Source: a virus
Strand: one strand, 5' to 3'
DNA: 28,110 nt
Virus record (IMG/VR): IMGVR_UViG_3300032116_010328
Location: 1 to 28,110 of that record
The translations under genes were made by a program, and so were the position numbers. This document shows positions 1 through 17,127 of the stretch, piece by piece; position 1 is the first letter of the stretch; the number at the start of each line of letters is the position of its first letter. The notes beneath the pieces were generated by a model. That model worked only from the letters and a program-made list of their open reading frames with translations. It was not told where the DNA came from and did no database searches.

Positions 1-927
1 AGAATCAGTCTCCAATTCAAAAATGGCGAGCCCAACATCACTACCGTCCCCATCAGTAACAGCAACAATACGATATTCTGCATCTACGAAGTCCTTTAGT
101 TTAAGTAGTGAATACGAACGCTTACCAATCTCATAATGCATCTTCGGGTCACGAATCATCGTTCCCTCGTATCCATCCTGCACGAACAACTGGTGGAGAT
201 GAGCGACTTGCGACTCGTCGTTCGCACGAACAGTCTTGACAATCTTGACATTTTCAGGTGCGTTAGCAACCAAGTCTTGAATAATCTCATGTCGTTGCGA
301 GAACGGCATACTATCATCCACGATGTCATACACATGGTAGAGTAGTTGTGAGGACAACTCTGGACGATACTTCTTGATAGCCTTCATGCTCTCCTGCAAG
401 AGAACGTTGTTCGGTAACATCAACTCACCATCCAAGATATACCCTTCGGTGTCAAACTTCAAGTGCTGAATGACTTCGGGAATCACTTCCTTGTTCCCTC
501 TGCTCCATCCGTTCTCTCCGTCAAACAGCATCCGCATGCCGTTGAGCTTCGGTTGGATATATGCGGGGAAACTCACCTTACTCTTATGGTCAACGAACTT
601 GTGGGCGAGCATCGGCATGGGACGGACATTCTTCCGTTCACCCTTCGCACGGAATCCCTTGTCCTTCTGCTTCTTGATAACGGCGTCAAACTCAAACTCT
701 GCCTGCTCTTGCGAATTCCGTTCGTTTGACCGACCGACATTCGTGGGTTCAGCAAAGTAGGGTTCAGACATCTGCTTCTTTGTCTCACGACCCGTCTTAC
801 TAATCTGATACCATTCAGTCTGGGTATAATAATCATTTCCGTCCTTGACGATATGCAACCGCCAGAACTTCTCACCACCATTCTTGTTTTCGGAAATCAA
901 CCAATCACTTGACTTTACGATTTTCAT
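1..927 (-). CDS. lig: ATP-dependent DNA ligase (C-terminus beyond window)
   Basis: Seals nicks in replicated or recombined phage DNA through a lysine-AMP intermediate. The frame is open to the left edge, so 309 residues are visible and the C-terminus is missing. Nucleotidyltransferase motifs are in order: motif I QPKLNGMR (125-132, AMP-accepting Lys127), LDGELM (165-170), YHVYDIV (197-203), motif IV EGTMIR (254-259) and motif V LLKLKDF (274-280). The sequence after residue 283 looks like the first strands of the OB fold. The first 95 residues are not catalytic; FWRLHIV, the later NVGRSNER and EQAEFEF, and KQKDKGF resemble the WGR-like N-terminal module seen in some phage ligases. The ATG overlaps the stop of the preceding 23-codon ORF (ATGA), so translation is probably coupled. 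The start is supported by that overlap and by motif spacing. Confidence 0.93.
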   Translation of the reverse strand, partial: MKIVKSSDWLISENKNGGEKFWRLHIVKDGNDYYTQTEWYQISKTGRETKKQMSEPYFAEPTNVGRSNERNSQEQAEFEFDAVIKKQKDKGFRAKGERKNVRPMPMLAHKFVDHKSKVSFPAYIQPKLNGMRMLFDGENGWSRGNKEVIPEVIQHLKFDTEGYILDGELMLPNNVLLQESMKAIKKYRPELSSQLLYHVYDIVDDSMPFSQRHEIIQDLVANAPENVKIVKTVRANDESQVAHLHQLFVQDGYEGTMIRDPKMHYEIGKRSYSLLKLKDFVDAEYRIVAVTDGDGSDVGLAIFELETDS

Positions 928-1223: not shown

Positions 1224-1264
1224 CCAAAAATAAGGGACATATGAAATATATCATATGCCCCCTA
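1224..1264 (-). terminator. factor-independent terminator after the TonB-dependent receptor gene
   Basis: On the minus strand an 11-bp stem (GGGGCATATGA against TCATATGTCCC, with one G-U pair) closes a 6-nt loop (1245-1250) and is followed directly by TTATTTTT. It begins about 35 bases past the stop of the receptor gene. The stem and U-tract fit an intrinsic terminator. The same bases hold the -10 element and part of the spacer of the promoter for the next operon. Confidence 0.65.
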
Positions 1265-1273
1265 TTTTGTCAA
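1245..1273 (-). promoter_or_regulatory. sigma70-type promoter for the small membrane peptides and ligase
   Basis: TTGACA (1268-1273) and TATATT (1245-1250) are separated by exactly 17 nt on the minus strand. Predicted start is near 1238, leaving a leader of about 24 nt with a GGAGG site. The -10 hexamer is exactly the loop of the flanking inverted repeat 1234-1261, so a dimeric repressor could bind across it. Five of six -10 bases and all of the -35 match consensus. Confidence 0.75.
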
Positions 1274-1296: not shown

Positions 1297-4200
1297 TTAG
1301 AAGTTTACTCTGATTCCCATTTGCATTTGCCAACGAGACATCAAATCGTCCGTCTGATAGGTATTCTTCATTGGGTCAAAACTAAAGGTTGGAACGCTAT
1401 TCACACCACGACCTGAACGATATTGGAGTGGGTACACATTTTGATTATTGAGGTTTGGGACGAAATAAAACTTACCCCAATTCTCATTAAGTAAATTACC
1501 AAAGTTGGTAATATCAAATGTGACCTGCGTATTCTTCAAAATACCTTTTGTGACATCTTGTGTGATACGAACATCTACACGATGGTTCCACGGAGTACGT
1601 GCTCCATTTCGTCGTGCATATTCTCCACGATGCCCAGAAAGATATGGGTCATTACGAATGAATTCATCAAGGTCTGCCCAGATTTGTGCTGGGGTTCTGG
1701 TATCTACTTGACCCGTAGGACGAGCAGATGGAACTAACTTGATTTCATCAATATTACGAGGAATGTAAATCAAATCATTATGACTTGACCCGTCACCATT
1801 CAAATCACCAGAATAAACATACGAGAATGGTGAACCCGATGCGCCCGTATAAACTGCGGAAATGGTGGTGTTCTTCTTCCAGGTCCACGTTCCCGTTCCT
1901 ACAAATCGGTGACGGATATCAAAGTTAGACCACGTAAGGTCATATTGATTACCCTTCACCAATTGATTGTATTCTACGTGGGATTGGAATGAGTTGCGTT
2001 GACCATTTGCCAAATCCTTTGCTTCTCCATAACTGTATGCGACCATCGCATCAAAGTAATTCCACTTCTTACTTAAGTTTGCTGTGATATTATAGCGGTG
2101 TCCTAAGTTTGTATTGTTAAGTGCGAATACTGAAGTGTATGGATTGGATGTGGTTGTATTCAAACGAGTGGTGGTGTAAACAGGTCTACGGTCACCGCCT
2201 GCGAGATTTCCTGCTGGTGCGGGTAATCCGATATTAGTAAATACGATATCGTTTAAGGTCTTGGTGTATGTCCAATCCATTACCAATAATGCGTCATATG
2301 GAAGTTTGATATCTGCTGCCAAGTTCATTCTGCGCATTTGTGGTTGAACATAATTGTTGCCAATCACATTCATTTCATATGTCGTTGTACTACTTAATGT
2401 ACTTTGACGGAGTGGGTCCACAATCAACGGAACAGTTGTGGTTGGACGAGTATCAATATTCCCCACCACTAATCCGTTATGAATGAATGGATATGCGTAC
2501 CATGCGAATGGCATACGACCTTGGAAGTATCCAATACCACCACGATAGGTGACTCTATCCTTTTGCCAACTGAATCCGAATCGTGGACCAATCAATAAAC
2601 TACGACCATAATCGTTGGTCACGGTGCTGTATGGTTTTGCTCCATTCGTCAAGGTCAGATTGGTGAATGCCTCTGCTTGTGTTGGAGTATCCATAATGTT
2701 CCAATCTGCACGAACACCTGCGGATACCTTTAGTGCATCGGTGATAGCAACTTCATCTTGGATATACACACTTGGAACTGCGATATTGAAGTTCGCACCA
2801 GGATTGTTCAACACATAATCTAAACTGTTATCCGTTAAATCAAATGTGGCACGGATACGATTCGGTCTATTTGCGAAGAATGATGCGAGATTTGCATATT
2901 GCCAACGACCTGCATATCCGTTCACGAAGGTATATTGAATGTTGTAGAATTCGTTGTGAGTTCCTACAGTAATCGTGTGATTATTCTTTGACCACGTTAA
3001 ATTGTTTGTGAATTCAAAGGTACGACTGCGAGTACGATACACCACACCTTCACGGTCACTTCCTGCGTTGATTTGACCGAATTGAATGTCTTGGATTTCA
3101 ATTTGTGGAGCGTATACAGAACCATACGGATTTCTGTGGTCCTCAACAAGAGAATATCCCAATAACAAACTATTGGATACTCCTGTTCCAAGTTGTGACT
3201 TCAATTCTGCAACCGTATTCGTGGTTTGACTCAAATGGTCAAAGTCTTGTGATGCCAACTTGTTCAGTGCTTGACCACGTTCCAAGTTTCCTGCGATGGC
3301 ATTCACATAGTTACTACGAACGGTGAGAATGGAATTACCAATATTCCAATCTAAACGACCGAAATACTTTTCACTATTTGCATTAACATTATATGCACCG
3401 AATGTTCCTGCATCAAAGTTTGGAACACCAGAACGTGCGGCGAATGATACCAAACTATCACGGACTTGTTGTGCGATTGCTTCAGTCGCTAATGCACCAC
3501 CAGTACCAGGAGCAAATAGTACAGGGTCAGTGCGACGAGAGATTTCTACGTTTGCGAAATAGAATAACTTATTCTTAATGATAGGACCACCAATACGTGC
3601 ACCATTTTGCAACTCACGGAAGGTAGTGGGGATACGTCCAGAGATACCATTACCAATCATTTGTGGATTGCGACCGAAACTATAAATTGACCCTTCAGTT
3701 CTGTTGGTTCCCGAACGAGTCACTGCGTTTACACTACCACCTGTGAAATTACCAATCTTCACATCATATGGTGCGATAACCACAGACACTTGTTCGATAG
3801 CATCAAGTGAGATGGGTTGGGTTCTGGATAATGACCCAGGTGTTCCTGTTGGAACGGATGCTGTGGATTGACCTGATGATTGACTGAAACCGAATGCGTC
3901 ATTCGATGTCGCACCGTCAATCGTGAGGTTGTTATACCGATAGTTTGACCCAGCAAATGATACTCCATTTCCTTGTGGAGTCATACGGGTCATATCTTGG
4001 AGACTGCGTGATAGTGTAGGTAACACTTGTAACTTTTCGTGATTCAATTGTGCGGTGACACCATCCTTACGTGCTTGTGCAGCCAAGTCAGCCACTACCG
4101 ATACTTGGTCTAATGTAACCACAATCTTTTCCATCTCTAAATCTGCTGTAGTTGCTTCACCCAAACGAACTGTTAGATTGTCTGTAGACTTTGGACGGAA

Positions 4201-4452
4201 CCCAAGTGCGGTCACCGATACGGAGTAAGGACCGCCTGGCTTTAGATTCGATAATACGAATCGTCCTTCAGTTGTAGTTTTCGTAACAATTCTTTGGTTG
4301 GTTGGAACAAATACCACAGTAACATTTGCATTTTCAATTGTACTACCTGTAACATCTTTTACTGTCCCACGAAGGATTCCACTTGTGATTTGCGCGTAGA
4401 GTGGATTAGACAACATCGCAGTTGCTAAAAGAATTCCCAACATTTTTCTCAT
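1297..4452 (-). CDS. Oar-like TonB-dependent outer-membrane receptor
   Basis: A complete 1051-residue outer-membrane protein, normal length for Oar-type TonB-dependent receptors. Residues 1-20 are a typical Sec signal peptide (MRKMLGILLATAM, cleavage likely after LYA). Residues about 24-108 (GILRGTVKDVTG, FVLSNLKPGGPYSVSV) form a carboxypeptidase-regulatory-like beta-sandwich, common in this family. The plug domain follows (about 113-245), with LDAIEQVSVV and its end NFTGGSVNAVTRSGTN, the Oar plug signature. Beta-barrel strands fill 250-1051, with an acidic DLNGDG loop at 883-888 that may bind calcium, and the chain ends in a C-terminal Phe as needed for Bam assembly. The gene sits between the phage polymerase and ligase genes with no broken genes around it, and base use looks like its neighbours. 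The substrate cannot be read from sequence. Possible roles are nutrient uptake, receptor blocking or envelope alteration. The Shine-Dalgarno (AAGAGA) is weak. Confidence 0.93.
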   Translation of the reverse strand: MRKMLGILLATAMLSNPLYAQITSGILRGTVKDVTGSTIENANVTVVFVPTNQRIVTKTTTEGRFVLSNLKPGGPYSVSVTALGFRPKSTDNLTVRLGEATTADLEMEKIVVTLDQVSVVADLAAQARKDGVTAQLNHEKLQVLPTLSRSLQDMTRMTPQGNGVSFAGSNYRYNNLTIDGATSNDAFGFSQSSGQSTASVPTGTPGSLSRTQPISLDAIEQVSVVIAPYDVKIGNFTGGSVNAVTRSGTNRTEGSIYSFGRNPQMIGNGISGRIPTTFRELQNGARIGGPIIKNKLFYFANVEISRRTDPVLFAPGTGGALATEAIAQQVRDSLVSFAARSGVPNFDAGTFGAYNVNANSEKYFGRLDWNIGNSILTVRSNYVNAIAGNLERGQALNKLASQDFDHLSQTTNTVAELKSQLGTGVSNSLLLGYSLVEDHRNPYGSVYAPQIEIQDIQFGQINAGSDREGVVYRTRSRTFEFTNNLTWSKNNHTITVGTHNEFYNIQYTFVNGYAGRWQYANLASFFANRPNRIRATFDLTDNSLDYVLNNPGANFNIAVPSVYIQDEVAITDALKVSAGVRADWNIMDTPTQAEAFTNLTLTNGAKPYSTVTNDYGRSLLIGPRFGFSWQKDRVTYRGGIGYFQGRMPFAWYAYPFIHNGLVVGNIDTRPTTTVPLIVDPLRQSTLSSTTTYEMNVIGNNYVQPQMRRMNLAADIKLPYDALLVMDWTYTKTLNDIVFTNIGLPAPAGNLAGGDRRPVYTTTRLNTTTSNPYTSVFALNNTNLGHRYNITANLSKKWNYFDAMVAYSYGEAKDLANGQRNSFQSHVEYNQLVKGNQYDLTWSNFDIRHRFVGTGTWTWKKNTTISAVYTGASGSPFSYVYSGDLNGDGSSHNDLIYIPRNIDEIKLVPSARPTGQVDTRTPAQIWADLDEFIRNDPYLSGHRGEYARRNGARTPWNHRVDVRITQDVTKGILKNTQVTFDITNFGNLLNENWGKFYFVPNLNNQNVYPLQYRSGRGVNSVPTFSFDPMKNTYQTDDLMSRWQMQMGIRVNF

Positions 4453-4469
4453 AAAAGAGTCTCTTTAAC

Positions 4470-4493
4470 CGCGTCCCTCCTATGGGTGACGCG
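4470..4493 (-). promoter_or_regulatory. GC-rich leader hairpin before the TonB-dependent receptor
   Basis: CGCGTC and GACGCG form a 6-bp stem around a 12-nt loop that contains AGGAGG. The loop motif lies about 23 nt from the ATG, too far to be the working Shine-Dalgarno of the annotated start. The hairpin may be a weak terminator for the polymerase gene or a translational control element. A TATATT -10-like hexamer lies just upstream (4506-4511) but has no -35 at 17 nt. Function is inferred only. Confidence 0.35.
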
Positions 4494-4517
4494 ACGCAAG
4501 GGGTGAATATATATGTA

Positions 4518-7037
4518 TCAGAAACTAAACCATTCCTGAGCGTTCTGATTAATTTCGGTGGGTATATTACCCCATTTTAATGCCGAATAAAAATCTTCTA
4601 ATTTCTTTTGTAATTCGTTCTCAAATAATGCATTATAATCAATATAAGTATTTATTAGGTCAACGATTTCTGGCGGGTCATTATATCCCTTGACCGCCAC
4701 CGCTTCGAGATTCCACGGATTCTGCTTCAGATACAACCACTTGACCTTAGCGCCATCCGTAATCTTCTCATATCGGTTTTCCAACTTGAAATGCTTCAAC
4801 AAGGCGTTATACGTCAATGCCGCCTTCACGTGAGCTGGGGTTCCCTTCTGGAAGTCATTGAGTTTCCCGCTAGTGGAATATTCAGAAATATTCTTGACCG
4901 CAGTATTTCTGGCAACGTCCAAATAGCTCATTCCATTCATTGAATCACGGAAATCCAGAACATTTTTGTCAATTGTATCCTTGCTAATTTTGTTCAAGAT
5001 ATCCTTCATCATCTTATTCATAAAGTCACGGAATGCTGGTGGGAACGACGACCTGACCACATCCAATCCCTTCACCTTCATTTTGTTTGCGACATCAAGG
5101 TTGGATTCCAAATCATAGACCACATTCATCGTATATCGCTTCTTAGCAATCCAGACCGCGGTTTCTGCGACCGACTCGCCCTTGATGTGTAACCGATGAT
5201 TCTTACAGAAGAACAAGTCTTGTGCCATCACATCATAATATTCATTCAACTTCTTTTCCATCGCACGAGCGAGCTTGATGGTGAAGTCCTTTCCACCATT
5301 CTCTGGCATCAATGGGGTTGCTGAGAAATACAACGAATCGGTATCAATGTAGGTACAATAATCTTCTTGGGTACCCAACTTGGTTTGATAGAGTTCATTA
5401 GCGAATGCCGCAGATTTCTTAATCACATCTTGACCCGATGCGGTAACGGCAAGAGCATTATCAATATCAAAGAATCGGAAGATGGGAAGTCCCAGCACAC
5501 CATACAATGAATTCAAGAAAATCTTTTGGATGTGTTGGCGTCTGTCATAATATTCTGCTAGTTCTGTATTCCCCTCGTTCTTATACTTCTTCATCGTGTT
5601 CTTAAACTCCACACGTTGAGCAAACCAGCGGTCAAGCACCTCTGGAATAATCCCAACACCGTTTCCATTATACAACACGCCGTTGGAACTAATCATCAGA
5701 TTTTCCATCTTCATATACTTCAAGAATGCTTCACGTGACAATCTGACCACATCATCATCGTTGGTCCCACGGATGAGATATTCAGCCAGCTGCTCATTCA
5801 TGTGCTTGTCTACATTCCAGTTGGTTACGAACCCAATCTTCGTTTCTGGACTGATGTTGAGACTCATAATGATGGACGGATACAGCGATTGTAAGTCGAG
5901 GGAATATACCCACTCATACAACCCCGGCACAGGTTCCTTCACGAACGCACCAGCAAATCCCTCCTCATCGTTCTCCACCTTATTGTCCATCATCTCACGA
6001 CCACCAGCGGGCTTGTTCGTCACAATAATACCTTTCCGATGAAGATAAGTGACGATGGTTCCTTCCAAGAACTTTGAACTGAACCAATAATCTTCATATG
6101 ATACGTGACCCAAATGACAGATACCGCGGACGAGCTCAATCAGCTTGAGCTTCTTGTCCATCTCCACGATAATACGCACGTCTTGAAGATTATATTCGAT
6201 AAACTTGTTCAAGTCATCGCGGAATAATTCATCCAACGAACCTTCGTAATCAACCTTTCCCATACCCACTTCCAACCTACCAATTGTATCCAAGCGATAA
6301 TTCGGTTGCTGAGTATAAGTAAACTTCTTATAAAGAGTCAGATAGTCGAGCGAAGATACACCAGCAATCTGATATCGACCGCGGAACTTTGAATACTTAA
6401 TTTTACCAATCGGACTTAACCGACCAGCTGTATTTGGTCCACATTGCTGCTTCAACCGATTATATAGATATGGGATATCGAAGTGGTCACTATTCCACCC
6501 AGTGATAATTGTCGGGCCAATTTGCTCATACAAATCAATAAATCCATACAACAAATCCAACTCAGACCCATACATCACAACATTGATATTTTCTTTCTCA
6601 TAACTTGGATGTGTACCCGTCTTATCCAAGACCAATACCGTATATTGCTGTGTAATTGCATCATACACGGCAATAGAGGTAACTTCATTATTCGGATTCT
6701 CAATATTTGGCACACCATTTTCCATAGACACTTCGATGTCGAAAAACATCAACTTGTGTCCCTTGGAAGGCTCATCTTCGTTGAGATATAGGTCGGTGAG
6801 AACGCGAGTCTCTTGGGGAAGGTCGCTCTCAAATAGATTCGGGTCATCTCGCTTATACCGCTTGACCTTTGCGAGTTTTACACCCGTCATGCTGATATAC
6901 GTACCACTCCGGTCTGGCTTGTACGCATAGTCAAATTTATTATAGGGAATGGTTTTATAACCCAGCTCATCGTCCCAGAGATGCACGGTGTCATTTCCAA
7001 ATCCTTCACCACGTTCAATATAAATTGCTTGATACAT
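4518..7037 (-). CDS. family B DNA polymerase, replicative (T4 gp43-like)
   Basis: Main replicative polymerase, 839 residues, with proofreading. The 3'-5' exonuclease motifs are intact: Exo I FFDIEV (98-103, Asp100/Glu102), Exo II WNSDHFDIPY (181-190) and Exo III YNLQDVRII (282-290). Polymerase motifs follow: A SLDLQSLYPSII (379-390), B KIFLNSLYGVLG (505-516), C YIDTDSLYF (563-571) with the two catalytic aspartates, and KKRY (632-635). The C-terminus ends in EWFSF, a hydrophobic aromatic tail of the type that binds a sliding clamp in T4-like polymerases. The start has GAGG a few bases upstream and lies 6 nt after the stop of the small membrane protein gene, so both are probably on one transcript from the promoter at 7344-7372. 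Confidence 0.97.
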   Translation of the reverse strand: MYQAIYIERGEGFGNDTVHLWDDELGYKTIPYNKFDYAYKPDRSGTYISMTGVKLAKVKRYKRDDPNLFESDLPQETRVLTDLYLNEDEPSKGHKLMFFDIEVSMENGVPNIENPNNEVTSIAVYDAITQQYTVLVLDKTGTHPSYEKENINVVMYGSELDLLYGFIDLYEQIGPTIITGWNSDHFDIPYLYNRLKQQCGPNTAGRLSPIGKIKYSKFRGRYQIAGVSSLDYLTLYKKFTYTQQPNYRLDTIGRLEVGMGKVDYEGSLDELFRDDLNKFIEYNLQDVRIIVEMDKKLKLIELVRGICHLGHVSYEDYWFSSKFLEGTIVTYLHRKGIIVTNKPAGGREMMDNKVENDEEGFAGAFVKEPVPGLYEWVYSLDLQSLYPSIIMSLNISPETKIGFVTNWNVDKHMNEQLAEYLIRGTNDDDVVRLSREAFLKYMKMENLMISSNGVLYNGNGVGIIPEVLDRWFAQRVEFKNTMKKYKNEGNTELAEYYDRRQHIQKIFLNSLYGVLGLPIFRFFDIDNALAVTASGQDVIKKSAAFANELYQTKLGTQEDYCTYIDTDSLYFSATPLMPENGGKDFTIKLARAMEKKLNEYYDVMAQDLFFCKNHRLHIKGESVAETAVWIAKKRYTMNVVYDLESNLDVANKMKVKGLDVVRSSFPPAFRDFMNKMMKDILNKISKDTIDKNVLDFRDSMNGMSYLDVARNTAVKNISEYSTSGKLNDFQKGTPAHVKAALTYNALLKHFKLENRYEKITDGAKVKWLYLKQNPWNLEAVAVKGYNDPPEIVDLINTYIDYNALFENELQKKLEDFYSALKWGNIPTEINQNAQEWFSF

Positions 7038-8591: not shown

Positions 8592-8897
8592 TCACTTGAT
8601 ACGATTCAACTTTTGCTCAATTTTTGTCTTATCGTTTTTTCCGTAAAGGAATTCCCGCGTCCGTCCATCCTTATAGAACATTAACATCGGAATCGCCTTA
8701 ATACGATTCTTCTCTTTCAGTTCTGGTTGTTCATCTACATTTACCTTATAGAATGGAACAGTGGATTCATTTGCCACTTCTTCCACCATAGGTAACATTT
8801 CGATGCAGGTTGGGCACCAAGGAGCCCAGAAATCTACCACGAACGGCTCCTTGGATGCCAACTTTTCTTCAAATTCTTGTAACGTGAGTTCCTGCAT
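8592..8897 (-). CDS. thioredoxin with CPTC active site
   Basis: 101 residues, close to standard thioredoxin length (about 105-110). It shows VVDFWAPWCPTCIEMLPM with the active site CPTC in place of CGPC, and the cis-proline loop KAIPMLMFYKDG. A proline directly after the first cysteine changes the redox potential compared with CGPC. Its ATG overlaps the TAA of nrdJ by one base (TAATG), a strong sign of coupled synthesis. It probably reduces the C-terminal cysteine pair of that reductase. Two thioredoxins with different active sites in a row suggest a division of labour. Confidence 0.92.
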   Translation of the reverse strand: MQELTLQEFEEKLASKEPFVVDFWAPWCPTCIEMLPMVEEVANESTVPFYKVNVDEQPELKEKNRIKAIPMLMFYKDGRTREFLYGKNDKTKIEQKLNRIK

Positions 8898-10747
8898 TAT
8901 TGCACCTCACATCCACCACCACCACAAGCAACTTCACCTGCGAGGTCGGTATTATCTTCGACTTCAACCACCTTGGTCAAATCAATCTTATGTAAGTGAC
9001 CGACCATTTCCTTGTATTGTTCTTCGGTGATATCTTCGAATGGAGCTTGCATATAACTGTGGTCACTATACGGCAGAACACTTAATGCGGTGAAGTTCTC
9101 ACGATTGTCCCACATCCATTCTCCAACACCAACCCATTCGTCTGGCTTGATGGTGACGGTGACGGATACGTTATTCTTGTTCTCACCCTTACGATGACCA
9201 GCCTTTACCCATTCCTTCCATACCTTACTGGTACGTCCAAGAAGGTCAAGTGCAGATTCTTGTCTGGTGATTGCACCCTTTGGTGCCTTTTGTGGAACAG
9301 AGATAACTGCTTGTTGCTTCGGCTTGAAAAATTCATCTTCCACGATTTCTGGATGATTGTCTGCAAGATATTGATAGATACCTTCGTTCTTACCTACACG
9401 GATACGACGAATGTAGAAATCATTATGCCAAGCGTGAATGCCAGAGGAAGTTCCTAATACTAGAGATGAGGTTCCTTCGGGCTTGACAGTGGTGGTTCTC
9501 GCAGCCTTGTTTGTCCCAATCATTTCCGCCACACGTGCATTCTCTTCCTTCACCACGTTGGCTGCTTCTTTCATATCTAAATTCAGGACGGTGCCCGAAG
9601 CGATACCCGTCATCGACACTCCGATGAGTGCTTCCTTTTCCGTTGTTCTCTTCCATATATCTCTCAAATAGTGAAAATTAGTATAGCTTGCTTGTAATGT
9701 TCCAATGAATGCTGCTGCCTTCGCACGTGCGTTGAAATCATCTTGGTCCTTGATGTCACCGGCATTAATCGTGGTGAGGTTACAGAACTGGAATGGACGG
9801 AGTGAGATTTCTGCACAAGGATTCAATCCCCAATTTGCATCATTTGTGAAGAAGAATCCAGGTTCACCAGAACCACTCATTTCAATCTTCTTCCAAAGTT
9901 CTAAGAATACTTCCTTTTCAATCTTGTGACGAACGATAACTGCAGAGTTATTGGAACGACCACGCTGTGGATTGGTTTCCCACCAGTTGCCGAACTTACA
10001 GGTCAACATATCATCGTCATCCAAATCAAACAATGAAATCATTGCGGAACGACGAATGCCACCAGAAAGAACTGCATCAGCGATGAAGCACAGAATATCG
10101 TGCACTTCGAGTGTGGTAAGTTGTTGACCATTTTGCTTACGGTCGAAAATCTTTTGGATGTTGTGAAGTGCATCCTTGAGTGGTTCTGGACCAGGTGCCT
10201 TACCACCAGAGGTGAGTAATAATGCACCCTTTGGACGAACATCTGAGAAATCATAAACTGGTAATGCCTTCCCCTTCATATATGCTTCTACGAGCATCTT
10301 GACCGCATCTGCCCAACCTTCAATACTGTCACCGACGAGATAACGGCGTGACTTGACTGGCTTGTTGATTGGTGGAAGTTGTTCAATATGATTCTTCTGT
10401 ACGGAATAACCCACACCCGTTCCAGAAAGAAGAAGGAACATCACTTCACTAAATGCGTCTGTGTGATTGATTGGAAGGAAACAGCAATTGTACAAACGTG
10501 CATTATTGATTTGAATTGGCTTCCCTGCGAATTGGAGTGACCGCATGGATGGAAGTATCTTCTTATCATACACAAATTCGTATGCTGCTTCAATTTCTTT
10601 TTCTAACTTTGGGAACTTCTCTAAATGCATTGCTTTATTTCTATCTACGAGTTCCTTCCACGTTTCACGGCGTTGCTTCTTTGGAAGATACTTCGCATAT
10701 TTCATAAACGTTGTAATTTCTGACAATATCTTTGACTCTAGTTGCAT
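8897..10747 (-). CDS. nrdJ: adenosylcobalamin-dependent (class II) ribonucleotide reductase
   Basis: Makes deoxynucleotides for phage replication, using coenzyme B12 to generate the thiyl radical. 616 residues, monomeric type, resembling the Lactobacillus leichmannii ribonucleoside-triphosphate reductase. NPCAEI (309-314) holds the radical cysteine (Cys311) and Glu313. Cys322 lies 11 residues later, the same spacing as Cys408-Cys419 of that enzyme. Its partner is Cys88 or Cys89 in YNCCFLP. The C-terminal tail CGGGGC (608-613) is the swinging redox pair that thioredoxin reduces. The phosphate-binding segment is in PEGTSSLVLGTSSG (423-436). No NrdB-type partner is present, consistent with class II. 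The two downstream genes encode thioredoxins. Shine-Dalgarno GGAG lies 8 nt before the ATG. Confidence 0.95.
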   Translation of the reverse strand: MQLESKILSEITTFMKYAKYLPKKQRRETWKELVDRNKAMHLEKFPKLEKEIEAAYEFVYDKKILPSMRSLQFAGKPIQINNARLYNCCFLPINHTDAFSEVMFLLLSGTGVGYSVQKNHIEQLPPINKPVKSRRYLVGDSIEGWADAVKMLVEAYMKGKALPVYDFSDVRPKGALLLTSGGKAPGPEPLKDALHNIQKIFDRKQNGQQLTTLEVHDILCFIADAVLSGGIRRSAMISLFDLDDDDMLTCKFGNWWETNPQRGRSNNSAVIVRHKIEKEVFLELWKKIEMSGSGEPGFFFTNDANWGLNPCAEISLRPFQFCNLTTINAGDIKDQDDFNARAKAAAFIGTLQASYTNFHYLRDIWKRTTEKEALIGVSMTGIASGTVLNLDMKEAANVVKEENARVAEMIGTNKAARTTTVKPEGTSSLVLGTSSGIHAWHNDFYIRRIRVGKNEGIYQYLADNHPEIVEDEFFKPKQQAVISVPQKAPKGAITRQESALDLLGRTSKVWKEWVKAGHRKGENKNNVSVTVTIKPDEWVGVGEWMWDNRENFTALSVLPYSDHSYMQAPFEDITEEQYKEMVGHLHKIDLTKVVEVEDNTDLAGEVACGGGGCEVQ

Positions 10748-10804
10748 ACTTCTTACTCCAAAATCGTTAGGGGTTTGGGGTTAAATAAATACTACTGTGT
10801 TACG

Positions 10805-10838
10805 TGAAAAAATCGGTGATTACCCAACGATATTTTTT
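10805..10838 (-). terminator. probable terminator between helicase and ribonucleotide reductase genes
   Basis: Right after the helicase stop, ATCGTTG and CACCGAT (10812-10831) form a 7-bp stem with one mismatch, followed on the minus strand by six T (10806-10811). On the plus strand the other side also ends in a T-run, so the element could act in both directions, though no plus-strand gene is nearby. The stem is short; efficiency is uncertain. Confidence 0.5.
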
Positions 10839-12219
10839 AATCCAAATCCATCTCTAATAGTTTCTTTGCGAGGTTTTGTTTCGTAACCGTTTCACCATTT
10901 TCCATCTGCTTCTTCAACATAATCCCCTTTGCGGAGGATTCGTCGTAAATCTCTATCTTACCTACACTTGCGTCAATAATCATCGGGAACGTTTGACCAT
11001 CTCCACCAAATCGGTTCTTGATGATATGAGCGCGACCCGTCTTATGAACCTTGTCCTCTAGTTTCCGAGAGATTGAGAGTACCAAGTCGGCTGTCATAAT
11101 CTTGGAATACGATTCTGCAATCTTGTCCGCCTGAATCACTTCGTCTTGTAACGCACTTCTCTGAGTCTGTGAAGCCGTCCAAATCGGAACCTGCAATTCA
11201 CCAGCCAATCCACGAAGTTCTTCATAAACTGCACCCAACTCTTGATATCGTGCATCGGTTCTGGCGTTCGCACTCATCAAATCTGCATAATCAACGATGA
11301 TGAGGTCTGGCTTGAATCCCAACGATGCCATCTGTTGAACGTGAGCCTGAATCGTATGAGATGTAATAGTACGAGCGGGATAATACTTAATGATAATTTC
11401 ACCCTTAATCGTTTCCACCAAATCCTTAATCAATTCAGGATTCTCTGGAATCTTTCCAGGCTCAATACCAGTATAAATCGTATCGTACCGAAGTCCCACA
11501 TAATTTTCATTCAATTCCAAGGTATAATGAACAACCTTTTTACCTTGCCTCAATGCATTCGCACCAATTGTTGCGAGTGCCCAACTCTTACCGACACCAG
11601 ACGGAGCGATAACGACTCCAAGTTCACCACCAGCCAATCCACCACCGATAAGGGAATCAAGAGCATCCCATCCAGTCGGAATCGTATCACGGGCGTCCTT
11701 CAATAATCGTTTCTCGAAATCCTTTTTCCAATCGTGACCAACAGTCTTGGGTTGACCACTCCGAAGAGCATTATCAACAAGAACTTTGATTTCACCATAT
11801 TGACCAATCTGCAGAAGGTCCACCGACTTAATGATGGCAGACTTTAAGGTTTGATTCTTAGCGAAATCAAGGAAACTATCTTGAACATAATCCAAATCGT
11901 TATCGTTCATCTTTTGGAAGATACTACGAAGCGATTCCACGATACCAGTACGTAACGTATCGTCCTTGACATCCTTGTTCATCTCCACCTTGAATACTTC
12001 CAACGTAGGTAATGTCTTATACTCGTCAAAATATTCTAACGTAGTCGCAACAATCCACTGATTCGCATCCAACTCAAAGAAGTTTGGATTGATAACGTCA
12101 TAGGATTGAGCAAGGAAATCAGGAGAGTTCAACATAGCCGCCACAGCTTTCGCTTGGAAACTAGGTCCGAATTTTGCCAACGTATCTACATTCTTGTCGT
12201 AATTCTTATGGTCTACCAT
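10837..12219 (-). CDS. dnaB: replicative DNA helicase, DnaB/T4 gp41-like
   Basis: Hexameric helicase that unwinds DNA ahead of the fork, 460 residues. An N-terminal helical domain (1-170) is followed by a RecA-like motor: Walker A IAPSGVGKSW (around 204-213), HYTLELNENY (H1a-like with the conserved Glu), Walker B DLIIVDYADLM, the sensor segment PIWTASQTQRSA, and the arginine finger region KNRFGGDGQ near residue 400. This matches the DnaB family. The gene starts inside the last 14 bases of the exonuclease gene and is followed by a probable terminator. No primase was found in the window. A possible promoter lies upstream inside the exonuclease gene. Confidence 0.95.
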   Translation of the reverse strand: MVDHKNYDKNVDTLAKFGPSFQAKAVAAMLNSPDFLAQSYDVINPNFFELDANQWIVATTLEYFDEYKTLPTLEVFKVEMNKDVKDDTLRTGIVESLRSIFQKMNDNDLDYVQDSFLDFAKNQTLKSAIIKSVDLLQIGQYGEIKVLVDNALRSGQPKTVGHDWKKDFEKRLLKDARDTIPTGWDALDSLIGGGLAGGELGVVIAPSGVGKSWALATIGANALRQGKKVVHYTLELNENYVGLRYDTIYTGIEPGKIPENPELIKDLVETIKGEIIIKYYPARTITSHTIQAHVQQMASLGFKPDLIIVDYADLMSANARTDARYQELGAVYEELRGLAGELQVPIWTASQTQRSALQDEVIQADKIAESYSKIMTADLVLSISRKLEDKVHKTGRAHIIKNRFGGDGQTFPMIIDASVGKIEIYDESSAKGIMLKKQMENGETVTKQNLAKKLLEMDLD

Positions 12220-13246
12220 GATATCTCGCTAAAGGCGTAAAAGTAAATGTTATCCATTCATCATAATTCTGAATACTACTAATAATATTAGTACGAAACA
12301 TCAGTCTTGTCAAGTCCGACTTCCGAATTGGAGGGCATCCTTCTTCGTATTTATGTAATATTTTCATCTTTGCATCAATATTAATATCCACATCGTGCAA
12401 ATTCATTAATTGCAAATTTCTATTTACTATACTGGTATTATCCAGTATATTTTCTACCAGCTTTGGCTTCTTTTTAATATCAGCATATTTCTGTTCAATT
12501 AAATCCAAATTGACCTCAATATTTGGGTCAGCCAATTCTGGAATATACTTTAATACAGTTTTCTCACCAGCACCCTTGATTCCATCAATATTGTCACTCT
12601 TGTCACCAAGTAATGAACGATAGAATACAAAGTTGGATGGGTGAACACCATATGTTTCCATTACAATATCTATATCAAATGTTTTCTTCTTGACTGGATT
12701 GTATAGCTTAACGCTATCACTTACCATCTGTAAGAAATCTTTATCCGTAGAATAAATGATACTGGTACCACCATTCTTGGTGACCAACTCTGAGAAGTAT
12801 GCGATAGTATCGTCTGCTTCGATATTGTCCAACGCAAGAATAGAAACTGGTAAACATTCCACCATTTCTACAAGTGACACCAACTGCCACTTCATATTCT
12901 CCCGTTCTTGTTCATCCGTAGTCATATCATAGGAACGATTCAGACGAGTCGGTGGTTTCCGATTTGCCTTATATTCTTTATAAATCTTCCGTCTACGTTG
13001 TGACCCACCCTTTCCATCAAATACGAGTACGACTCTGGTAGGTTTGAAACTACGAATAGCAAACCCCAAAGATTTCATAAATCCAGCCATTCCCCCAATA
13101 TGATTACCATCTTCATCTAATGTGGGAATAGCGGCATAACTCCGCATAAATGTGTTGAGTGCGTCAACAATAAGGACACGGGAATTATACCCAATGTCCT
13201 TATTGTCAAACTGCATACTATCAAACACCTTCAATAAATCAGTCAT
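12206..13246 (-). CDS. 5'-3' exonuclease, RNase H/FEN-like (T4 rnh-like)
   Basis: Removes RNA primers and flaps on the lagging strand. 346 residues with the FEN-family metal sites: VDALNTFMR (27-35), FDGKGGSQRRRKIYKEYKAN with the basic helical arch, EADDTIAYF, STDKDFLQM, and the helix-three-turn-helix LGDKSDNIDGIKGAGEKT. The ATG at 13246 overlaps the end of recA by 8 bases (AAATGACTGA), so synthesis is probably coupled. The C-terminal third (after about 260) is not characteristic. Its last codons overlap the helicase gene and contain a possible internal promoter. Confidence 0.93.
   Translation of the reverse strand: MTDLLKVFDSMQFDNKDIGYNSRVLIVDALNTFMRSYAAIPTLDEDGNHIGGMAGFMKSLGFAIRSFKPTRVVLVFDGKGGSQRRRKIYKEYKANRKPPTRLNRSYDMTTDEQERENMKWQLVSLVEMVECLPVSILALDNIEADDTIAYFSELVTKNGGTSIIYSTDKDFLQMVSDSVKLYNPVKKKTFDIDIVMETYGVHPSNFVFYRSLLGDKSDNIDGIKGAGEKTVLKYIPELADPNIEVNLDLIEQKYADIKKKPKLVENILDNTSIVNRNLQLMNLHDVDINIDAKMKILHKYEEGCPPIRKSDLTRLMFRTNIISSIQNYDEWITFTFTPLARYHGRP
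12285..12313 (-). promoter_or_regulatory. possible internal promoter before the helicase gene
   Basis: TTGACA (12308-12313), 17-nt spacer, TAATAT (12285-12290) on the minus strand, inside the exonuclease coding sequence (codons for LTRLMFRTNI). The -10 matches consensus in only four positions. It lies in an inverted repeat with 7-bp arms (12278-12292). Spacing equals that of the other promoters; location within a gene makes chance possible. Confidence 0.35.
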
Positions 13247-15852: not shown

Positions 15853-17127
15853 TTATATTTTGTATAGAGAAATTTGGTTATAATTGTGACCACGATATTG
15901 ACGGACAGGATATCCACCTTTACTGAGTTTTTCTGCGACATTCCCCATAATATCCAATTCATCGTTGTGGACATCCAGTAGAATAGCGTCATAAGTATAC
16001 AGAATGACCTTGGATTTGAACATATCCAAATACTGGCAAACTCCGTTTACTCTGGCAATCGCTTCTTCAGTCTCCGTCAACTGCATCATATAGTTAAACA
16101 CCTTATTACTGGTGGGGTCAAATACAGTCACTTTGCGACCCGTTCCTGACAATACAAATCCATTCTGACGGTATTTCTCCCACAAATCAGACGAGTACTC
16201 CTTGAGCTTTTGGAAGAACTCTACACCACCTGTATCGTCACTATATCCATACATCAATCCGAACGTGCGGGACTTGGATTCTTCATATTGTTCTTCGGTA
16301 ATATTATCTGTCCCATAATACTGTTTGGCAAGGAATTCGTGAACGGAACTTTCTGGGAGTTTATATCCGATAAGGTCAGCCGCAAGACGAAGATGGAATG
16401 CCTCATAGTCAAACTGGACAAGAGTACCATTCTCCCCAAACCGACTGACGAACTTCTCACGGGTACCATCGTTCTTATTGAGAGCGGCAAAGTTGATTCC
16501 ACCAAACGCATTACTCGGACGACCTGTAGAAGTGTAGATGTTATAATCAGAATACACGAACTGATTGTCAGTAGTCCAGAGTCCTGCTTGCTCAATCTTG
16601 GTCAACGTAGGAATGGTAATCTGATTAATGAATTCAAACGCAGATGTCTGTTCCGTGGACTGGCATCGGTCGTACATATGCTTACAGTGTTGTAAGAACG
16701 CCTCTGCGGTTTCTATCCACGAAGTCAACGGGATACTGTAATGGAGATTCTTGAACTTGAACTGGCTCTTAATCTGGTGCATCGCCATCGTGTAGTATTC
16801 CCGATACAACGGAATCACATCCCCATTCAAATGTATCAACGATGCCAAGTCAACTACATTCTTTGCATTAGTCAGTTGTTGTAATTCTTTTTTATGAAGG
16901 GTGACCAACTTATATGCATCACTCAGGTCCATCTGAAAGTGTGGGGCATCGGGATGATTGACCGACACAGTATACGAGGTTCCATCATCAAAGAGGAAAT
17001 GGAGTAAAGCAACACGATTCTGTGAAGAGTGTAGAAATGCGTCAACCGCCACGGGATAGACATAAGTAGTCTCACCCCGAAGGCGGTTGGTCAAATATTC
17101 TAGTTCTGCTTGTGTCGTAATAACCAT
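15853..17127 (-). CDS. short, divergent family A (Pol I-like) DNA polymerase
   Basis: 424 residues; a normal Pol I Klenow portion is about 600. The palm and fingers are visible: STGRPSNAFGGINF (the TGR-x-S element), motif A FDYEAFHLRLAADL (239-252, catalytic Asp240), O-helix ESKSRTFGLMYGYS with Lys285 and Tyr293 in the places of Klenow K758 and Y766, and motif C YTYDAILLDV (Asp380). In motif C the usual HDE is YDA, so the second carboxylate is lost, and the arginine four residues before Lys285 (R754 in Klenow) is a tyrosine. The first 120 residues recall the exonuclease strand pattern but without its carboxylates. It could be active, altered, or a structural or regulatory derivative. It has its own promoter and a GAGG ribosome site. 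Confidence 0.85.
   Translation of the reverse strand: MVITTQAELEYLTNRLRGETTYVYPVAVDAFLHSSQNRVALLHFLFDDGTSYTVSVNHPDAPHFQMDLSDAYKLVTLHKKELQQLTNAKNVVDLASLIHLNGDVIPLYREYYTMAMHQIKSQFKFKNLHYSIPLTSWIETAEAFLQHCKHMYDRCQSTEQTSAFEFINQITIPTLTKIEQAGLWTTDNQFVYSDYNIYTSTGRPSNAFGGINFAALNKNDGTREKFVSRFGENGTLVQFDYEAFHLRLAADLIGYKLPESSVHEFLAKQYYGTDNITEEQYEESKSRTFGLMYGYSDDTGGVEFFQKLKEYSSDLWEKYRQNGFVLSGTGRKVTVFDPTSNKVFNYMMQLTETEEAIARVNGVCQYLDMFKSKVILYTYDAILLDVHNDELDIMGNVAEKLSKGGYPVRQYRGHNYNQISLYKI

Follow-up and report, generated by a model that had tools for sequence, protein, structure and literature searches.

The 28,110-nucleotide virus fragment analysed here (IMG/VR record IMGVR_UViG_3300032116_010328; hereafter the window) encodes a complete TonB-dependent receptor (TBDR), T1, which lies in one of two fixed slots in the replication operon of a family of T4-like aquatic phages and is under purifying selection. 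Another TBDR can take its place, with the leader hairpin and the first part of the signal peptide retained. We propose, with confidence just short of an even chance, that it is an interchangeable cassette by which infected cells import a scarce ligand.

A complete receptor gene behind the phage polymerase

The window derives from a T4-like phage and encodes gp32, a UvsX/RecA-like protein, a 5'-3' exonuclease, a DnaB-like helicase and a family B DNA polymerase (PolB), along with a class-II-like ribonucleotide reductase (RNR), two thioredoxins, a dUTPase, a T4 baseplate protein, an M23 peptidase and others. This phage has two polymerases, one family-A-like (15853-17127, below the Pfam cut-off) and one of family B (4518-7037).

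T1 is encoded on the minus strand (1297..4452), from an ATG at 4452 to a stop codon at 1299-1297, and its 1051 codons contain no internal stop. Its borders are polB on the left (4518..7037, minus strand; PF00136, E=2.8e-41) and an ATP-dependent DNA ligase on the right (1..927, minus strand; PF01068, E=5e-21), whose 3' end lies beyond the window; we call this interval slot A. A sequence-only reading had recognized an intact, complete receptor gene between a phage polymerase and a ligase, and its coordinates and identification were borne out by Pfam and an AlphaFold2 model. Its remark that codon use resembles that of the neighbouring genes also agrees with our data, as the codon distance of T1 to the rest of the window (0.089) is tied with that of snf2 for the lowest value. 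T1 is the final gene of the T4-like replication operon, and the gene order suggests that it is co-transcribed with polB.

Between T1 and the ligase is a promoter-like sequence, TTGACA-17-TATATT (1245..1273, minus strand; σ70-type, 11/12 positions, with TG). Because a σ70 scan of the window gives about as many sites as shuffled sequence does (14 versus 11.5), the promoter claim rests on this single 11/12 site and on its recurrence before the ligase in L003, L004, L017, L020, L033 and L036, including contigs in which slot A is empty (L017, L033). An inverted repeat, GGGGGCATATGA-TATATT-TCATATGTCCC, spans the -10 box (1235-1270), and in L003 and L004 its two arms have changed in a matching manner. 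The region from the promoter-like site to the ligase (928-1240) contains very short open reading frames resembling single-membrane-span peptides, as it does in L003, L004 and L020.

The predicted protein begins with a signal peptide read from the sequence by eye (residues 1-21, MRKMLGILLATAMLSNPLYA, followed by Q; 4390..4452, minus strand, as for all parts of T1) and a CarboxypepD_reg domain (residues 26-106, 4135..4377; PF13620, E=1.5e-17). The stretch LDQVSVVAD (residues 114-122, 4087..4113) is a probable TonB box region, as it lines up with L.EVVV of bacterial relatives, with the preceding acidic position not kept. A plug, assigned from model and alignment (residues 141-252, 3697..4032), is 95-97% identical among phage copies. 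It is followed by a barrel of 22 strands, counted by hand on the AlphaFold2 model (residues 253-1051, 1300..3696), which matches the family OMP_b-brl_4 (PF25183, E=4e-40) and ends in an aromatic residue, Phe, read from the sequence. The T1 of the window had no match at E<=0.01 to Pfam Plug (PF07715) or PF00593; its orthologues match Plug weakly (14-16 bits, cut-off 23.9) and one matches PF00593 at 5e-5, below the cut-off. No specific family was found in NCBIfam or PADLOC, and a PDB sequence search gave no match. The AlphaFold2 model (54 sequences, mean pLDDT 76) has the plug and barrel of TBDR architecture, and solved TBDR structures match it over residues ~94-1051 with Z up to 33. These include siderophore, colicin, ferredoxin and B12 receptors, with no substrate singled out.

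The Oar class of TBDRs is defined by a PF13620 N-terminal extension, a PF00593 barrel and a PF07715 plug (PMC6434023). The earlier description of T1 as Oar-type is supported by the CarboxypepD_reg extension, the TBDR fold and the overall architecture, together with a probable TonB box region. The PF00593-PF07715 pair was undetected in the window's T1, which matches PF25183 instead.

Two cargo slots and exchange between phage lineages

A search of 2.9 million viral contigs recovered T1 at ~87% identity in slot A, between polB and lig, of five further contigs (L003, L004, L005, L006, L014), and a 76% orthologue in a second position, slot B, between rnr and dut, in six contigs. The same junctions were found again in independent contigs. 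Slot A is reduced to 64-77 bp in L017, L033, L034 and L035 and holds other cargo in further relatives. A TBDR match was present in 14 of 45 records, many of them fragmentary; because most relatives do without a detected TBDR, any benefit is conditional. The N-terminal domains of slot-A and slot-B copies are only 49% identical, suggesting that this module was replaced separately. No tRNA genes were detected in the receptor-bearing genomes of the window's group (G002, G003, G005, G010, G022, G024); several receptor-less relatives have 21-31 (G014, G016, G019, G030, G041).

Slot B, empty in the window, lies directly behind the RNR gene (8897..10747, minus strand), and the enzyme, earlier noted as B12-dependent, is class-II-like by PF21995 (28.4 bits, cut-off 27) and phrog_367 (E=2e-131). 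Import of cobalamin for this RNR, a link that the sequence-only reading had thought conceivable, would fit the shared operon and the presence of BtuB among the structure matches (Z 30). We nevertheless regard it as highly improbable: the RNR is also present in relatives lacking a TBDR, no cobalamin riboswitch precedes the phage receptors sampled, and T1 is not BtuB-like in architecture, with many siderophore receptors matching equally well.

T1 also occurs in a second T4-like lineage (L002, L007, L084), with a cyanophage/pelagiphage-type gp32 and a permuted, betaproteobacterial-type tmRNA. L002 and L003 share 92% nucleotide identity over T1 and 50 bp upstream only, with no similarity elsewhere. 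L003 and L004 are 93.5% identical in T1 and only 83.4% in polB. As judged from these identities, T1 has moved between unrelated phages. The permuted tmRNA (RF04321/RF01850; tag GTYNTPLALAA) lies directly behind the receptor (L002:13129-13449, L007:1148-1468, L084:19295-19615). In the L002 copy (10001-13135), codon 176 reads TAG in frame where relatives encode Leu, either a nonsense mutation or a suppressed amber. L009 (G008, 101 kb, 27 tRNAs) provides an independent case: this separate phage encodes a TBDR of its own, 31% identical, and has Bacteroidota-like start regions. A 6-kb unverified faecal contig (MT837825, 29%) was left out of the phage cases.

The tmRNA lineage bears on a possible role in export. 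Oar of Myxococcus xanthus, which also has an N-terminal CarboxypepD_reg extension, secretes the subtilisin-like PopC, a protein lacking a signal peptide (PMC6434023), and T1 could similarly pass a phage protein, possibly a subtilase without a signal peptide, across the outer membrane. A subtilase of ~500 aa was found in 3 of the 33 records searched, all with T1; in the tmRNA lineage its gene follows T1 closely, and in G010 the two lie ~32 kb apart. These cases come from only two phage lineages (simple exact count, ~0.07), no subtilase was detected in the T1-bearing G002 and G005, and the subtilase resembles the phage protease family phrog_3677, so it may be virion-related. We consider export improbable. 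Oar itself is a cellular protein of the PF00593 barrel family, which T1 does not match at E<=0.01. A PP-loop (QueC-like) gene is paired with the subtilase in two otherwise unrelated receptor-bearing phages (L233:5074-7163 and L084:17217-19376; 62-63% identical).

Receptor replacement and a conserved leader hairpin

The closest relative by polB is L018 (95% aa identity). L018 and the window are homologous across polB, the leader and ~45 nt of signal-peptide code; similarity then ceases and returns exactly at the T1 stop codon. In place of T1, L018 has an unrelated TBDR, T2 (PF00593, PF14905, Plug), with a GT2 glycosyltransferase and an LpxH-like phosphoesterase. A T2 relative (42%) is found in slot B of L033/L034, in which slot A is empty, so that T1 and T2 are each seen in both slots. 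That two receptor types are interchangeable suggests that transport into the cell, and not one surface shape, would be under selection.

The GT2 and LpxH-like genes form a conserved pair in the same two slots (L018:13929-15372; slot B of L017, L023, L027, L042, L043 and L047-L049; slot A of L024 and L025). Small lipoprotein-like proteins are also among the slot cargo of relatives.

A 53-nt leader (4450..4502, minus strand), identified by sequence comparison, precedes slot-A receptors of both the T1 and T2 type and the L002 copy; slot-B copies are without it. Its layout is GCGTC-stem-ACCCAYAG..GG-stem-GGTTAWAGAGA-ATG, and in the window the hairpin is CGCGTC-ACCCATAGGAGG-GACGCG (4470..4493, minus strand). 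Four of the six stem pairs are altered on both sides across six sequences, covariation to which we give moderate weight because the sequences are few. A covariance model found one match in each of eight receptor-bearing records and no other significant match (37 records). A pattern scan of all viral contigs gave true cases only before TBDRs; 11 of the 18 matches were due to chance, with no receptor behind them. Folding the leaders as single sequences gave no significant result (T1 leaders, z -0.5 to -1.3; L018, +0.5); the case for an RNA element rests on covariation. Rfam, in gathering and E-value modes, returned chance matches only. The leader of T2 may be merely a retained T1 leader, since slot A is homologous among its carriers; that of L002 moved together with its T1 gene. 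The hairpin probably controls T1 translation. Two candidate features were discarded: an ACC/GGU pseudoknot, which would require zero-length loops, and a CsrA site (GGA in the loop), which is not conserved.

Selection and bacterial relatives

The dN/dS of T1 is 0.05-0.11, close to that of polB (0.045-0.069), consistent with the earlier view of a selected, long-resident gene rather than a fresh capture. In a tree with bacterial homologues the phage copies form a single clade (support 100), parted by a long branch from those of Bacteroidota. The best bacterial relatives are Bacteroidota proteins at 40-42% identity, found in a genome scan based on a pair of short peptide patterns, with 80 of its 201 matches retained, so that a closer relative could have been missed. 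A plasmid search independent of the chosen motifs also placed Bacteroidota first (39%), with proteobacteria at 25-28%. The bacterial family (Chitinophagaceae, Sphingobacteriaceae and Hymenobacter; L087-L166) comprises full-length homologues of 1039-1144 aa which, unlike T1, are chromosomal, have no conserved neighbours and no Shine-Dalgarno use around them. A neighbourhood comparison detected no conserved partner gene beside them.

The chromosomal location of these nearest relatives is what an assembly chimera, bacterial contamination or a neutral passenger might predict. Such an origin is barely credible here: the junctions recur in many contigs, selection is purifying, and the phage-only clade has no bacterial homologue above about 42% among the scan matches kept. 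T1 has been exchanged and swapped in place with its leader kept, and it is therefore a selected phage gene and not an assembly error. The two outcomes that the sequence-only reading had named as damaging, a chimeric junction at the gene borders and confinement to one assembly, were not what we found.

Conservation within the receptor bears on its role. The linker with the likely TonB box is 69-78% kept among phage copies and 48% in bacterial pairs. Extracellular loops exceed strands in conservation by 0.02-0.07 in phage T1 pairs, from only three divergent sequences and with loops and strands assigned by hand on a model of moderate confidence; the bacterial mean at similar divergence is -0.04, and loops equal or exceed strands in 14% of bacterial pairs. 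The sequence-only reading had offered four roles without deciding between them; we favour, from these sequence comparisons, a working ligand-gated transporter over a decoy or a diversifying surface protein. The loop conservation could equally come from a conserved protein partner.

The main rival to the import reading is superinfection exclusion or surface remodelling, in which the displayed phage TBDR, in relatives together with the GT2 and LpxH-like proteins, would titrate rival phages or bacteriocins dependent on host TBDRs or LPS, or prevent their adsorption. TBDRs are well-known receptors for phages, which can in turn block them: FhuA is inactivated by Cor (PMC11436027), and an FhuA-Llp exclusion complex has been solved (8a60). 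What keeps exclusion first among the rivals is that relatives have surface-modifying genes in these two slots, among them the GT2/LpxH-like pair, joined to a receptor in L018. Small lipoprotein-like proteins are found there as well, and cassette swapping is compatible with an arms race. However, the loops do not diversify, a TonB box or a near-invariant plug would be superfluous for a decoy, and the GT2/LpxH-like pair is mostly found without a TBDR. We thus see exclusion as a serious explanation, albeit a rather unlikely one.

Host and proposed function

In the window's phage group, 52% of genes have a Shine-Dalgarno-like motif ahead of them, compared with 12% for a control stretch (219 genes). 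The values are 5% versus 8% in Bacteroidota loci and 12% versus 9% in L009, the phage with the 31% TBDR, whose start regions are A-rich. Based on these signals, the host of the window's phage is probably not a typical Bacteroidota, despite the Bacteroidota-like receptor. The nearest isolate, Microcystis phage Mel-JY01 (polB 44%, RNR 62%), is too distant to assign a host.

T1 is bacteria-like, has a fixed place between core phage genes and is under selection, the features by which phage auxiliary genes are recognized. Under the import reading, T1, the final gene after polB, would be synthesized during the replication phase and exported into the host outer membrane by the Sec and BAM machinery. 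Driven by host TonB-ExbBD, it would import a ligand in short supply, be it a metal complex, a cofactor or an oligomer, that is limiting for virus production, and its role would be auxiliary metabolic. A more elaborate proposal, which we judge unlikely, is a modular receptor system: the leader hairpin would act as a regulatory RNA of a new kind, which may bind a ligand or a protein, and the signal peptide would be a docking site for unrelated TBDR bodies, together giving a non-Bacteroidota host a Bacteroidota-type importer during infection.

Relation to known phage genes

T4-like cyanophages carry cargo genes that are mostly soluble or photosynthetic enzymes. Like these, T1 is a host-like gene between conserved replication genes; unlike them, it encodes an outer membrane transporter with its own leader, and psbA was looked for and is absent, so there is no cyanophage marker. 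A phage-encoded, SusC-like TBDR has been reported in the marine megaphage Mar_Mega_1 and in LR745206, where it was proposed to raise uptake during infection (PMC9723777); LR745206 carries a 29% relative of T2. Those phages belong to another group and their TBDR to another receptor family, and it appears there as a gene-list entry without a slot, exchange, selection or leader (PMC9723777). The literature searched contained no phage-borne TBDR beyond that report. What appears to be new is that the slots are fixed, that phage lineages exchange the gene, that one receptor can be swapped for another and that a leader accompanies it.

Until now, phages were seen chiefly as exploiting or blocking TBDRs, apart from the one report of a megaphage that carries one. 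The TBDR described here is a phage gene that is stable, passed between lineages and possibly regulated, and the hairpin in its leader is a candidate for a new RNA element, its target being defined. Whether lytic phages increase outer membrane import while they infect, and whether nutrients or exclusion would be the reason, thereby become directly testable questions.
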